NCBI RefSeq assembly: GCF_900106535.1
Contig: NZ_FNOH01000022.1
Location: 1-64,000, forward strand
Origin: Myxococcus xanthus
Lineage (GTDB): Bacteria > Myxococcota > Myxococcia > Myxococcales > Myxococcaceae
Reading direction: 5' to 3'
DNA length: 64,000 nucleotides
Each line of letters opens with the position of its first letter. Position 1 is the first letter of the stretch. This document shows, in pieces, positions 292 to 5,235 of this stretch. The notes beneath the pieces were generated by a model. It ran no database searches. It was not told the origin of the DNA and worked only from the letters and a program-made list of their open reading frames with translations. Both the position numbers and the translations under genes were made by a program.

Positions 292-708
292 TCATCGCCG
301 CGTTCGATGAAGAGGGCGTTGGATGATGTCTGGTAGGTCAATGGAAGGGGCATCGTCGCCTTCCTTGGGCTTGCCGCGCCAATCCACCCGAAGGAGCGGC
401 TTGTCCGGCGTCAACGCCCAGTCGATGAGGCGGCGAACGAAGCCGGGGCCCACGGCGGTGGAGTCCCAGGTGGGGACTCGCACTCGAATCCAGCCGCTGC
501 CTGCGTCTGGGAGTCCTGGAAACTCCCGGCCGTGGACGGCCAGGACGCCCTCCTCGGCGGGTTGCTCCAGCGGATACTGGACGTGGAACCGCTTGTCGTC
601 CGCGATGACGTGCAGGACTTTTTCCGGTCCATCCGCTGCGTCCACCCACCAGATGAAGAGGCGGCCTTCCCGGTGGAGCATACGTCGTCCCTTGCTACGC
701 ACGCCCAT
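292..708 (-). CDS. Conserved hypothetical protein, 138 aa
   Basis: The start ATG at 708 is preceded by GAGAGGAGG, a strong ribosome binding site about 8 bases upstream, so this start is well supported. The protein has a basic N-terminus (MGVRSKGRRML), then a Trp- and Val-rich core with WVDAADG and DWRGKP. It resembles small myxobacterial proteins of unknown role; I know no domain for it. The C-terminus (IIQRPLHRTRR) changes in character, so the 3' end may be truncated by the same rearrangement that left the IS and the 42-aa ORF. Upstream lies the relic of an AbiEi gene start and a hairpin repeat. Confidence 0.55.
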   Translation of the reverse strand: MGVRSKGRRMLHREGRLFIWWVDAADGPEKVLHVIADDKRFHVQYPLEQPAEEGVLAVHGREFPGLPDAGSGWIRVRVPTWDSTAVGPGFVRRLIDWALTPDKPLLRVDWRGKPKEGDDAPSIDLPDIIQRPLHRTRR

Positions 709-734
709 CCGCGTTGCCTCCTCTCAAGCCGCAT

Positions 735-755
735 CGGCTGCCCGCGCCGCGCCAT
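735..755 (-). pseudogene. Relic of an AbiEi gene start (7 codons)
   Basis: From ATG at 755 the minus strand reads MARRGQP, matching ARRGQP at the N-terminus of the AbiEi gene at 1788-2357. Ungapped alignment of the 58 bases that include the adjacent hairpin gives about 48 matches, nine of the ten differences being transitions. Identity stops after the proline codon, where the DNA runs into the ribosome binding site of the 138-aa gene. I read it as the stump of a second AbiE cassette. Confidence 0.6.
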
Positions 756-762
756 TCCTACA

Positions 763-793
763 CACGAAACTAAAGTCCAACTCGAGTCTCATG
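763..793. repeat. 31-bp hairpin repeat, diverged copy C
   Basis: This has the same length, central TCCAA and left arm (CACGAAACTAAAG on the plus strand) as the copies at 2359 and 2410. The right arm has drifted (CTCGAGTCTCATG), so the dyad is weaker. It lies 7 bases upstream of the AbiEi start relic on the minus strand, the same layout as copy A at the intact AbiEi gene. Confidence 0.7.
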
Positions 794-972
794 CAAGACA
801 GCCTGCGCAACTGCGCCCGTCCTTCCATCGCTGACGTTGTGCGCGGCCTTGACGGTGGCGCGGGACTCGGAGCGGCCTGCCGCGGCGTGCGGCAGGGTGG
901 CGCCGCCCCGTGTTGGTGGCGGTGGTTCCTGAGCACGACGGTGGCGCGGCTTCAGTCTCGCTCCCGTCGTCG

Positions 973-1347
973 TTACGGCTCGTCGTCGAGGTCTTCGAGT
1001 TGCCCGGCTGCAACGTCGCGGTAGAAGGGCACCACTTCTTCGGCGAGCACCTCTCTCATTTCCTGGCGGGCGCTGTCGAAGTCACCCGCGCGCTTATGCT
1101 GGTACATGCGGTGAAGCGCACGCATCAGGCGCCAGGAGCCATCCTTGATTCGGCGCATGGCTTCCCGCAGAAGTTCCGTTGCGCCCGCTTGGGTCTGTAG
1201 CGCGGTGTCCGCGTCGCTGATGGCAACCTCTCGCGCGGTGCGCCTGAGCAAGCTCCGCACGTCATCCGTCAACTCCAGCGGGATGCCTTGGTTCAACACG
1301 CCATGTGCGAGGGCGCGCACCGGGTCCCAGTCGGGGCTGTCGTCCAT
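973..1347 (-). CDS. DUSAM domain-containing protein
   Basis: The 124-aa protein starts MDDSPDWDPVRALAHGVL. It shows the layout I know for DUSAM (domain of unknown function in Stigmatella and Myxococcus): an LxDDVRSLLRRTAREVAI segment, a middle ALQTQAGATELLREAMRRI, and the C-terminal AVPFYR-like motif here EVVPFYRDVAAGQLEDL. It is all-helical and soluble, with function unknown. The start is fixed by a TAATG junction: the TAA of the upstream Cys-rich frame (1347-1349) shares a base with this ATG, which suggests translational coupling. Confidence 0.85.
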   Translation of the reverse strand: MDDSPDWDPVRALAHGVLNQGIPLELTDDVRSLLRRTAREVAISDADTALQTQAGATELLREAMRRIKDGSWRLMRALHRMYQHKRAGDFDSARQEMREVLAEEVVPFYRDVAAGQLEDLDDEP

Positions 1348-1719
1348 TACTTCCTCCGCGTCTTTCTTCCGGGCTTGCACATCGACACGGGCCACTCTTC
1401 TTGGGCCTCGCAGCGGCGTAGGCACTCGTAGCAAGGGCCCGTCCACCCAGGCTCCGTCTTGCAGTCGCCGTAGAACCGAATGCACTCGCGCCGCCATTCG
1501 GGAAGGTCCCCGTTGTGGGCGTCGTCCCAGATGACGGGTGCCTCTTCTTCCTTGGCGGCCTCGTCCATGGCTGTCTTGACGCCTGCCATGTACATGGCGG
1601 CTTCGCTCGCCGTGAGGCCGCACGCTTCGGGGACGCCAGGGTTGCGCTGGATGCAGCACGACACGGTGTCAGAGCAGGTCGCGAGCGCGTACGCATCGCG
1701 ACGGCTGGCGGTGCCGGTG
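1347..1719 (-). pseudogene. 5'-truncated gene for a Cys-rich myxobacterial protein
   Basis: The frame reads ATGTASRRDAYALATC, then CCIQRNPGVPEACGL, and continues with repeated CxxC-like pairs (YECLRRCEAQEEW) to a TAA at 1347-1349. This looks like the C-terminal domain of a longer secreted or lipoprotein family of Myxococcus. Going upstream there is no ATG with a ribosome binding site. The only in-frame start is GTG at 1664, inside the domain, and the frame opens back to the AbiEi stop codon at 1788. The sequence before about 1720 is instead the 5' end of abiEii in another frame. The 5' part was therefore probably lost in a deletion. Expression from GTG 1664 (105 aa) cannot be excluded. Confidence 0.55.
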
Positions 1720-1776
1720 GCGCTGTTCGAGCGCGTGCTTGAAGCCCGCGGCGTTCGTGTACCTGCGAGGGGGCAT
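1669..1776 (-). pseudogene. Truncated AbiEii-type toxin gene (5' end only)
   Basis: ATG at 1776 lies 11 bases after the AbiEi stop, the normal position for abiEii. The first 19 codons read MPPRRYTNAAGFKHALEQR, which matches the N-terminus of AbiEii/AbiGii nucleotidyltransferase toxins as I recall them from Myxococcus. Afterwards the frame becomes unrelated and stops at 1669, giving 35 residues instead of roughly 250-300. All catalytic motifs of the nucleotidyltransferase fold are missing, so no active toxin can be made. Confidence 0.7.
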
Positions 1777-1787
1777 GCGGAGGCGTC

Positions 1788-2357
1788 CTAGGGACGTTGG
1801 GCCGCACTCTGAATACCCGCCAGGTCTGACGTGAGAATGAGCCCGCGTGACAGGGCCTGCGCGATGGCCTGATTCAGCAGGTCGGGTGAGACCTGCGCCG
1901 CTGCGCAGTCCAGCAGCGTTCTGCGCGGCGAAGTCCCTGGGATGGGACCGAACCAGACGCGCTCCGTTTCGCCAACGTCGGCATGGTGGAGCACGGTGCC
2001 CGCGGGGGCGCGGAACCGGCGTTGTCTCCACGCGGCTGGCAGCGTCAGGTGCATCCGTGAAGGCAGGACGTCCGACAGGTTGTGGAGCGCCAGGGCCGTC
2101 TGGTGGGAGAACACACCTTGCTGCTCGGACCAGAGCCAGACGGCGACCAAGTCCTCATGCTCACCGGCCGGAAAATGCACCAGCCGGTAGATGCCACGGC
2201 GCACACGGTGGAACCTCCCGGCCCCCACATGGTGGGCGAGCACCTGCGGCGAATACCCCGCCTCCAGTGCCTGCTGCGCCGTGAACAGGCCCGATTGCCC
2301 CGCGACGATGTCGAAGAGCCGGTCCCAATCTGGCTGGCCGCGTCGTGCCGTTCCCAC
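1788..2357 (-). CDS. AbiEi-family antitoxin / transcriptional regulator
   Basis: This 189-aa protein has the AbiEi antitoxin layout: an N-terminal winged-helix domain (GLFTAQQALEAGYSPQVLAHH, then VRRGIYRL) followed by a C-terminal antitoxin domain (SHQTALALHNLSDVLPS, LHHADV, RTLLDC). AbiEi proteins repress their own operon and neutralise AbiEii nucleotidyltransferase toxins in type IV toxin-antitoxin or abortive-infection systems. Here the partner is truncated, so this is an orphan antitoxin. The start is GTG at 2357. The codon at 2349-2351, where a related relic has ATG, is ACG. The hairpin repeat ends within two bases of the GTG, so the start is embedded beside a strong dyad. Confidence 0.8.
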   Translation of the reverse strand: MGTARRGQPDWDRLFDIVAGQSGLFTAQQALEAGYSPQVLAHHVGAGRFHRVRRGIYRLVHFPAGEHEDLVAVWLWSEQQGVFSHQTALALHNLSDVLPSRMHLTLPAAWRQRRFRAPAGTVLHHADVGETERVWFGPIPGTSPRRTLLDCAAAQVSPDLLNQAIAQALSRGLILTSDLAGIQSAAQRP

Positions 2358-2358
2358 G

Positions 2359-2389
2359 CACGAAACTAAAGTCCAATTTGAGTTTCGTG
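2359..2389. repeat. 31-bp hairpin repeat, copy A
   Basis: The left arm is CACGAAACTAAAG and the right arm TTTGAGTTTCGTG (plus strand), separated by TCCAA. One arm position is mismatched, and flanking G and C extend the pairing by one. It abuts the GTG start of the AbiEi gene, so it could form a hairpin in the 5' leader or act as an operator. Two further copies lie at 2410-2440 and 763-793. Confidence 0.85.
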
Positions 2390-2409
2390 CAAGTCGCCAC
2401 GCTCGACTG

Positions 2410-2440
2410 CACGAAACTCAAGTCCAACTTGAGTTTCGTG
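2410..2440. repeat. 31-bp hairpin repeat, copy B (perfect dyad)
   Basis: The arms CACGAAACTCAAG and CTTGAGTTTCGTG are perfect reverse complements around TCCAA. It lies between epsU (ends 2452) and copy A, 20 bases from copy A. It could act as a terminator-like hairpin after epsU, although no T-tract follows on either strand, or as a second operator half for the AbiEi gene. Confidence 0.85.
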
Positions 2441-2451
2441 TACGCCGCCCG

Positions 2452-3696
2452 CTACCGGTTCTCGCCCTCACGCGAGGTCCGCACCCACTCGCCGCGCTTC
2501 TCCGCGCCGGGGCCGCGCAGCATGAGCCACACCTTCCACACCACGTAGACAGGCGCCCAGGCCAGGTCCAGCAGGCCGCGAACGCCCACGCCAGACACCC
2601 ACCAGCCGCGCAGGACATACGCCCCCAGGCTGGCCACGCTGAAGCCCGCCACGCCCAGCGCCCATGGCATCGGGTTGTGGGACCACCAGGCGAACGCCCC
2701 GGCCATCACCGCGCAACCCACCGCCGCCAGCACCAACTGGCTCAGCGGCGGCACCAGCACGTCCATGGCGATGTCCAACAGCGTGCCATCCCTCTTCCGC
2801 AGGCCGTCCTTCAGCAGCGGCCACCCGTGCAGCTTGCGCATCTGCGCGCGGCCACCCTCCCAGCGCTGACGCTGCGAGCGGCTCTGCTTCTCCGCGGACA
2901 CCATCTCCCCCAGCACGTCCGCCTCCCAGACGTAGTGCACGCGGAAGCCGTTGCGGGCCAGGCGGATGCCGTACTCCAGGTCCTCCACCACGCTGAAGGC
3001 GTCATGCGGCACCTTGGCCAGCGCGTGGTGCGTGAAGCACATGCCGTTGCCGCGCAGGCCGCACGACACGCCCAGGGCCTCGCGGCCCTGTGAGCGCACC
3101 TTGTGGAACATGCCCAGGGCAATGGTCATCAGCCGCGTGCGCCAGGACGCCGTGGGGTTCATCACCCCGTAGTGCGCCTGCATGGCGTGCGCCCCTTCGG
3201 CTCCGGCCTTCGAACCCTCGACACCCTCGATGCGCTTCGCGAAGGCGGTCAGCAGGTTGGGCGACACCACCGTGTCCGCGTCCACCACCACCACCGCCTC
3301 GGCGAAGCCGTCCTGCTGGCTGAACTCGAAGGCGTGGGCCAGCGCGTAGCCCTTGCCCCGCTTCGTCGTGTCCTGCCGCTCCAGGACGAAGGCGCCCGCC
3401 TCGCGCGCCTTCTGCGCCGTCGCGTCGGAACAGTTGTCCGCCACCACGATGATGCGCCGCAGGTGTGCCGGGTAGTCCACCTCGGACAGGTTCTTCACCG
3501 TCCGGGCGATGCCCAGCTCCTCGTTGTGCGCGGGGATGATGATGTCGAACTTCCGCGGCCCGATGCGCGTCGTCGGCGGCTGGGGCCGATAGGAGAGCAG
3601 CGTCAGGGACAGCAGATAGCCACACGCCACCGCCACGGGAAGCTGCGCCACGCACAGCGCCACGTCCAGCCACGTCCACGATGTCACGACATGCAC
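2452..3696 (-). CDS. epsU: Glycosyltransferase family 2 of the eps cluster (EpsU-like)
   Basis: The 414-aa membrane glycosyltransferase has an N-terminal helix (residues about 10-32), a GT2 catalytic core and C-terminal membrane segments. Core motifs are FDIIIPAHNEE, the metal-binding DAD (VVVDADTVVSPN), the acceptor-side VVEDLEYGIRL, and QRQRWEGGR (the QxxRW motif). QxxRW is typical of processive or polysaccharide GT2 enzymes. GTG at 3696 is the start, 15 bases after the epsV stop. Placement at the end of the epsZ-wzx-epsY-epsX-W-V run matches the M. xanthus eps order recalled as MXAN_7415 to 7422. It likely adds a sugar during exopolysaccharide repeat-unit assembly at the inner membrane. 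Confidence 0.85.
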   Translation of the reverse strand: MHVVTSWTWLDVALCVAQLPVAVACGYLLSLTLLSYRPQPPTTRIGPRKFDIIIPAHNEELGIARTVKNLSEVDYPAHLRRIIVVADNCSDATAQKAREAGAFVLERQDTTKRGKGYALAHAFEFSQQDGFAEAVVVVDADTVVSPNLLTAFAKRIEGVEGSKAGAEGAHAMQAHYGVMNPTASWRTRLMTIALGMFHKVRSQGREALGVSCGLRGNGMCFTHHALAKVPHDAFSVVEDLEYGIRLARNGFRVHYVWEADVLGEMVSAEKQSRSQRQRWEGGRAQMRKLHGWPLLKDGLRKRDGTLLDIAMDVLVPPLSQLVLAAVGCAVMAGAFAWWSHNPMPWALGVAGFSVASLGAYVLRGWWVSGVGVRGLLDLAWAPVYVVWKVWLMLRGPGAEKRGEWVRTSREGENR

Positions 3697-3711: not shown

Positions 3712-5235
3712 TCAGCGCCGCTCCAGCTCCGCCAGCACGGGTAGCTTCAGAATCCGCTCGACCTGCCACTTCTCCAGAATGCGCCGGCGGATGATGTCCA
3801 GCGCCAGCGCCGCGAAGATGCCCATGCCGATTCCGCCCACCACGCCCGCGGCGACGATGAGCTTCACCTTCGGCTTGGACGGCCGCTCCGGGAAGGTAGG
3901 CGGCGACAGGACACTGAAGCGGTGCTTCATGGACGCGCGGGAAATCTCCAGCTCCGTGCGCGCCTGGTCCAACCGCCGCATCTTCTCCTGGTGCCGCATC
4001 ACCAGCATGCGCACCCGGTCCGCCGCCACCGACACCTCCGGGTCATCCGACGTGGCCGGCCCGCCGAACGTCGCGCCGCCCATGGCCGCCGTCGCCAGCC
4101 CGGACTCCAGCTCACCCGGGTCACCGCCGTTGCGCACGTACTCGTTGATGAGCTCCGTCATCTCCGAGCGCAGCGCAATCAACTGCGGCGAATCCTCCTG
4201 GAGCGAGGAGATGCGCTGCTCCAGGTCGGTGATGATGGGGTGCTGCGGCGAATAGATGACGCGCTGCTCGGACAACTGGTTGCGCAGCTCCGTCAGCCGC
4301 CGCGAGCGGAAATCCTCCACGTCGCCAATGGCCCGGCGCTTCGTCTGAATCATGAAGCGCATCTGCGCCAGCAGGTGGTCGGTGTTGATGCCCAGCGCGG
4401 CGTTGGCCGCGGCCGCGGCACCGCCCCGCCGTCCCTTCTTCTCCTCCTCCTTCTTCTGCCGGGCCTCCACGCGCTTCACCGCCGCGTTGAGCTGGCCAAT
4501 GGCCTGCTGGATGCCCGCGGCCTCCTCCACCACCTGCTTCTCCAGGATGGTGATGGCCTCCTGCACCGCGCCCATCTCCGCCGCCTGGCGCATGTCGAGG
4601 AAGTTCTGCTGCGCGGCCTGCACGATGTTGAGCGCCAGCTGCGGGTCGGTCCACTCCACGCCGATGGAGACGGTGCCCGTGCCACCCTCCACGCCGACAA
4701 TCATTGCCTGCTCCAGCATGGCGGTGAGCGCGTCGCGCTTGTCGTCGTCCGACATGGCCACCGGCGGCTTGCGCAGCACCTTCTCCTTCAGCCGGTTCAG
4801 CGGCGAGCGCTGCAGCTCCCAGTACTCCACCAGCTTCGCCTGCGCGACGATGGACTTGAGGTTGTCGTGCTTCATCACCATCTCCCACGCGGCGCGCGTG
4901 GGCTGGTCCGCGTCCACGGGGATGGAGCGCCCGGGGTTGGCCAGCGAGGAGATGATGAAGTTGCGCTGCGTCAGCATCCGCGTCTCCACGCGGTACTTGC
5001 GCGGCATGATTTTGCTGACGCCCACCGCCATGGCGGACACCGCGCCCATCACCACCAGGGCGAGGAACCAGTGCCGCAGCACCGCGTTCTTCAAAAAGAA
5101 GACCGCGTCGATGGCGAAGCCCCAGTCGATGAGGTCCGCGGGCGCGTTCGTCTCCGGGCGCTCCGGAGTGAACGCGGGCCGCGGCGGCACCAACTGGGGG
5201 CGCGGCCCGGGAGCCCCGGGCGCGGGGACCGTCAC
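3712..5235 (-). CDS. epsV: Wzc-type chain-length protein (EpsV/WzcX)
   Basis: The 507-aa polysaccharide co-polymerase has one transmembrane helix near residues 55-75, a long periplasmic coiled-coil region (many Glu/Lys/Gln, about 200-420) and a second helix near 465-485. A Pro-rich stretch (FPERPSKPK) comes just before the last helix, as in Wzz/Wzc proteins. No C-terminal tyrosine-kinase domain (no Walker motif) is present, so this is a kinase-less co-polymerase. It should link Wzy polymerisation to the EpsY export channel. The GTG start at 5235 overlaps the epsW stop (GTGA), indicating translational coupling. Confidence 0.85.
   Translation of the reverse strand: MTVPAPGAPGPRPQLVPPRPAFTPERPETNAPADLIDWGFAIDAVFFLKNAVLRHWFLALVVMGAVSAMAVGVSKIMPRKYRVETRMLTQRNFIISSLANPGRSIPVDADQPTRAAWEMVMKHDNLKSIVAQAKLVEYWELQRSPLNRLKEKVLRKPPVAMSDDDKRDALTAMLEQAMIVGVEGGTGTVSIGVEWTDPQLALNIVQAAQQNFLDMRQAAEMGAVQEAITILEKQVVEEAAGIQQAIGQLNAAVKRVEARQKKEEEKKGRRGGAAAAANAALGINTDHLLAQMRFMIQTKRRAIGDVEDFRSRRLTELRNQLSEQRVIYSPQHPIITDLEQRISSLQEDSPQLIALRSEMTELINEYVRNGGDPGELESGLATAAMGGATFGGPATSDDPEVSVAADRVRMLVMRHQEKMRRLDQARTELEISRASMKHRFSVLSPPTFPERPSKPKVKLIVAAGVVGGIGMGIFAALALDIIRRRILEKWQVERILKLPVLAELERR

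Follow-up and report, generated by a model that had tools for sequence, protein, structure and literature searches.

Palindromes in register with the predicted abiEi promoter as probable autoregulatory operators of an AbiE cassette in Myxococcus xanthus

Autoregulation by the antitoxin AbiEi has so far been worked out in two species, and the operator layouts of the two differ. AbiEi proteins represented by the entries 6y8q and 1zel have been shown experimentally to bind inverted repeats in promoters (PMC3985639, PMC7319586). In S. agalactiae, AbiEi (6y8q) binds two inverted repeats, IR1 and IR2, over its own promoter and represses the bicistronic abiEi-abiEii operon; the repeats form one pair of 23-bp elements, 3 bp apart, that spans the promoter, and transcription starts 26 bp before the ATG, with a ribosome-binding site present (PMC3985639). 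In the case of M. tuberculosis Rv2827c (1zel), two inverted-repeat pairs lie upstream of the antitoxin gene and overlap its promoter, and the four repeats, each of 23 bp and with gaps of 13 bp, are bound with negative cooperativity (PMC7319586).

The 64,000-nucleotide stretch of Myxococcus xanthus DNA analyzed here, hereafter the window, encodes an AbiEi for which 6y8q is the best fold match. As in S. agalactiae, the protein has two domains with an N-terminal winged helix. The DNA upstream of its gene differs from that of S. agalactiae, however, in having 31-bp dyads, a putative promoter that lies wholly within the proximal dyad, a start codon predicted to lie at about +1, and a tandem arrangement with a spacing of 51-53 bp. 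Rv2827c shares with the window an AbiEi-type fold and repeats that overlap the antitoxin promoter, but it is a larger protein with shorter, gapped repeats, and negative cooperativity is a property shown for Rv2827c. The Simkania negevensis plasmid pSn carries an AbiEi that is 44% identical to the window protein, with an AbiEii-family gene downstream, and a near-perfect palindrome (-33 to -1; L133, 1144-1177) that has TTGACA at its outer end and the ATG directly after it. It differs in its arm sequence (CATAAAACCTAAC), in its single dyad and in belonging to another phylum. A literature search that covered few subscription journals found no published description of the myxobacterial layout. Judged from sequence, the myxobacterial dyads appear to be an AbiEi autoregulatory operator, a kind already known, in a layout that would be new.

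Three dyads and a decayed cassette

The window contains three copies of a 31-bp dyad, at 763-793, 2359-2389 and 2410-2440, just where the sequence-only reading had placed them. Allowing up to three mismatches, we found no further copy in any of the 91 contigs of the genome (9.26 Mb); at the same threshold the motif gave six strand-matches in the 64-kb window, dinucleotide shuffles gave 0 and the chance expectation was 0. The copies flank the only close AbiEi gene of the genome (abiEi, 1788-2357, minus strand) and a nine-codon abiEi stub. Read along the minus strand, epsU (2452-3696) is followed by the distal dyad (2410-2440), the proximal dyad (2359-2389) and the abiEi start codon, a GTG at 2357. 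The proximal dyad occupies -32 to -2 relative to this start codon, leaving 1 nt between the two; it overlaps the putative abiEi promoter and its arms pair at 11 of 13 positions. The distal dyad, 51 bp further upstream, lacks a -35 element and is the perfect 13+13 palindrome that had been claimed (13/13 pairing, 5-bp centre).

The third copy (763-793, minus strand) is three mismatches off the dyad pattern, its half-site on the -35 side being altered and that on the -10 side intact. It adjoins the stub (735-761, minus strand) in the same register as that of the proximal dyad to abiEi, and we therefore read the two upstream dyads as serving one gene and the third as a relic operator/promoter. Two claims of the sequence-only reading need to be narrowed here. 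The TCCAA centre is present in all three copies (plus strand), but it is not a conserved part of the element, as relatives differ at the centre. Likewise, of the two copies said to lie upstream of AbiEi starts, 2359-2389 does precede a complete gene, whereas 763-793 precedes only the nine-codon stub, in which the start GTG is now GTA. The near flanks of 763-793 are about as conserved as the dyad itself, so we make no claim of selection on the relic.

The predicted product of abiEi is an antitoxin/repressor of 189 aa. It matches PF13338 above the cut-off and the PADLOC AbiEi models (E 1.4e-71), and its predicted structure (pLDDT 95) has the winged helix and C-terminal antitoxin domain of the AbiEi fold, with 6y8q (E 6.5e-9) and 1zel as the best Foldseek matches. 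The gene for the nucleotidyltransferase toxin, abiEii, follows abiEi in 42 of the 51 homologous loci, including that of G078, and PF08843 was confirmed for the downstream AbiEii in two loci. It is not found directly downstream of abiEi in this genome, where a search of the whole sequence gave no trace of AbiEii beyond a remnant of about 37 codons at 1672-1776 (minus strand). Only the beginning of the toxin gene is left in this remnant, which aligns with residues 1-37 of the G078 AbiEii (297 aa). The toxin gene has thus been lost here, and AbiEi is an orphan. Its dN/dS is 0.16 against G078 and 0.14 against G075, but the selection behind these values may predate the loss of the toxin, and we do not claim purifying selection on the orphan.

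A predicted promoter within the palindrome

A TTGCAC hexamer (2387-2392, minus strand), a 17-bp spacer and a TWNNNT box, TTAGTT (2364-2369, minus strand), stand in register with the proximal palindrome as the putative -35 and -10 elements of the abiEi promoter. A strict sigma-70 scan called no promoter between 600 and 2600, because TTAGTT is too weak for the scan; the transcription start is therefore one that we infer, and a register test over the 51 homologues was used in place of the scan. The pattern TTG-N20-T[AT]NNNT occurs in register at 37 of the 51 loci vs 3 of 17085 background positions. TTG lies ahead of 43 of 47 proximal dyads and of 0 of 12 distal ones. The second position of the -10 box is A or T in proximal copies, which breaks the symmetry of the palindrome; the distal dyad of the window has G at that position and its symmetry is perfect. 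The inverted repeats thus overlap the hexamers of the predicted antitoxin promoter, and we read the proximal palindrome as promoter and operator at once. Between the -10 box and the start codon there are 6 nt in the window; among the homologues the distance is 6 nt in 27 loci, 7 nt in 7 and 9 nt in 3. Given this distance, +1 should fall at 2357, at or close to the start codon, and with the promoter wholly inside the proximal palindrome the abiEi mRNA is probably leaderless.

The placement of the palindrome is conserved phylum-wide. A palindrome of at least 8/13 adjoins the start codon in 48 of 51 AbiEi homologues, counts that are not independent events, the homologues being related, and that are favoured by our choosing, where several in-frame starts were available, one that suited the dyad. 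It lies exactly at -32 to -2 in 38 of the 51 and is shifted outward by 1 nt in six and by 3 nt in four; in one of these four (L025) the automated scan took the distal dyad, the proximal one being at -32. Of random positions, 1.5% reach 8/13. The 30% identical AbiEi of L089 has a 13/13 palindrome (TCAATACCGTAAC) at -32. The arms vary by lineage (AAACT, AACAT, AAGAT, AAACGG, AATGTT), and the spacing of tandem dyads is fixed at 51-53 bp in the genus.

Among 39 distant AbiEi-domain controls (26-34% identity), only two reach 8/13. Since these distant proteins are without the layout, we assign it to the abiEi-abiEii cassette subfamily and reject its extension to all AbiEi-domain proteins. Outside the phylum, one of the eight plasmid loci examined has the layout, that of Simkania negevensis; it is absent from those of Thermus and Neochlamydia and from four actinobacterial loci, and in the Deinococcus plasmid locus a palindrome lies about 32 nt further upstream. 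Ahead of a mycobacterial plasmid abiEi (L137, upstream of 1177) there is no palindrome, but a TATACT is located some 7-8 nt upstream of the start codon, which hints that this gene is leaderless as well.

Linkage to abiEi and alternative explanations

When the motif was counted genome-wide and the nearest genes were listed, as the sequence-only reading had proposed, all three copies fell at abiEi or an abiEi remnant. Across the family, 18 of 96 genomes contain the motif, at 39 sites in total. Twenty-five of these sites are at an intact abiEi, two at an abiEi with a stop (G076), four at an abiEi with an internal deletion (G066, G077) and six at an abiEi 5' stub (G000, G066, G077, G078, G060). 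The remaining two belong to G062, which lacks the abiEi-abiEii pair (about 1.5 kb, L055 4001-5491) between collinear flanks and keeps the dyad pair. None of the 39 sites in the 96 genomes is unlinked to an abiE cassette or to what a lost one left behind. Scored by genome, motif and close AbiEi occur together in 14, the motif alone in four, AbiEi alone in 12 and neither in 66 (Fisher P 7e-7); in most of the 12 genomes with AbiEi alone, the place of the exact motif is taken by a diverged version. The palindrome accompanies the cassette across loci, genera and families, which supports the earlier suggestion of an operator that travels with it.

That suggestion had been set against a mobile hairpin, REP-like or otherwise, scattered through the genomes of myxobacteria. 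The copies are hairpin-capable and clustered, with a remnant at a second place, as such an element might be. However, a REP-like element would be present in many dispersed copies per genome, and here there are three in 9.26 Mb, all linked to abiE. Furthermore, no unlinked copy occurs in 96 genomes, and both the 51-53 bp spacing and the start-codon register are fixed. With all 39 sites at abiEi, its remnants or an abiE-pair scar, the REP reading fails, and we regard its probability as close to nil. The dyads might instead mark a recombination or insertion site of the cassette, given that they persist without the genes in G062 and G060 and that direct repeats flank the region in the window. Against this, the cassette has dyads at just one of its ends, an abiEi stub accompanies the third copy, and the losses do not share end points (abiEi codons 10-171, the whole pair, stub-stub recombination), which is what ordinary deletion would produce; a recombination site is highly improbable.

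A 5'-leader hairpin that controls translation or termination of abiEi would account for a perfect inverted repeat whose two arms change symmetrically between lineages. Against such an RNA element, the dyad is only 1-4 nt from the start codon and contains the predicted promoter hexamers. Its outer arm bases are conserved as sequence, there is no Rfam match, and no T-run terminator was found at the dyads. We consider it improbable, and the hairpin of the sequence-only reading is better described as a DNA palindrome superimposed on a promoter with its hexamers in register. That the dyads serve another host regulator of abiE cassettes is a reading that gains from AbiEi being only the presumed binder, but the arms vary between cassettes along with the winged-helix domain of AbiEi itself, the rest of the genome has no copies, and the chlamydial plasmid has the same layout with other arms; this too is very improbable.

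Two further arrangements were seen among the family genomes. The loss in G062 (L058 4760-4850) is nearly exact, running from the start codon to just past the toxin stop, and its two dyads are well conserved. In G056 (L032), three tandem dyads lie upstream of abiEi with a spacing of 51 bp.

Arm co-variation and a proposed mechanism

The arms change symmetrically on both sides between lineages, and they do so in step with the winged helix. Operator-arm and winged-helix distances remain correlated when C-terminal distances are removed (partial Mantel r 0.52 for all 49, and 0.44 for the 35 left after de-duplication, with no permutation as high), and the reverse test of the arms against the C-terminal domain gave partial r values of 0.05 and -0.11. 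Part of this co-variation reflects shared ancestry, since flanking DNA gives a partial correlation of 0.20, indicating some background, and two C-terminal columns, L106 and I182, score above 4, which is the noise level of the column method. Arm positions 7-9 are associated most strongly with Q38, S36 and P37, followed by Q28, and H42 and A41 also score high; V39 and L40, which lie in this helix too (residues 37-45 of the model, pLDDT 95), show no association. This is how the exposed side of a recognition helix in the predicted structure would be expected to behave.

We consider it very probable that the dyads belong to a type IV (AbiE) toxin-antitoxin cassette and are the operators through which its AbiEi represses its own gene. 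The exclusive linkage, the near-invariant geometry, the promoter register, the symmetric arms and the co-variation of the arms with the recognition helix are the observations on which this reading is based. The outer half of the proximal palindrome would cover the -35 element and the inner half the -10 element of a sigma-70-type promoter, with transcription starting at or beside the abiEi start codon to give a leaderless mRNA. AbiEi would bind through its N-terminal winged-helix domain, one protomer per half-site, the half-sites being about 22 bp, or two helical turns, apart, and the bound protein would block RNA polymerase. The distal dyad, about five turns upstream and on the same face, could serve as an additional binding site by which repression is reinforced or adjusted. 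Orphan AbiEi would repress only itself, and perhaps also the relic promoter at 763-793.

A broader proposal, which we put forward tentatively and with some doubt, is that the AbiE cassettes of this phylum, and of at least one chlamydial plasmid, have a geometry-locked leaderless operator-promoter, that the arm code and a few recognition-helix residues co-diversify to give a natural set of repressor/operator pairs insulated from one another, and that leftover operators serve as captured promoters, as 763-793 might for a 138-aa gene. If true, a 31-bp palindrome would serve as operator, -35, -10 and start-codon boundary together. In about 50 cassettes the layout keeps its distance from the start codon nearly to the base while the recognized sequence varies, which makes an AbiEi DNA-recognition code, and a possible insulation of co-resident cassettes, directly testable. 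Lost AbiE systems could also be traced by using the palindrome as a DNA tag.

The neighbouring genes show further traces of rearrangement. At 1347-1776 the 5' end of abiEii continues into a broken lipoprotein-like gene without a signal sequence, intact versions of which occur in G066, G075 and G076; the gene may resemble those of the SitA lipoprotein toxins of myxobacteria. A DUF2379/TIGR02267 (DUSAM domain) protein is encoded at 973-1356, between abiEi and the relic dyad. Downstream of the relic lies an ORF of 138 aa (292-708, minus strand) with its own AGGAGG; a search for a family match to this ORF gave none, and it may have captured the relic promoter as its own. The relic operator and abiEi stub stand ahead of the 138-aa gene in six genomes (window 292-793; L057, about 4600-5083). 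In G060, a full dyad pair stands ahead of this gene and abiEi is absent, as if the cassette had been removed by recombination between stub repeats.
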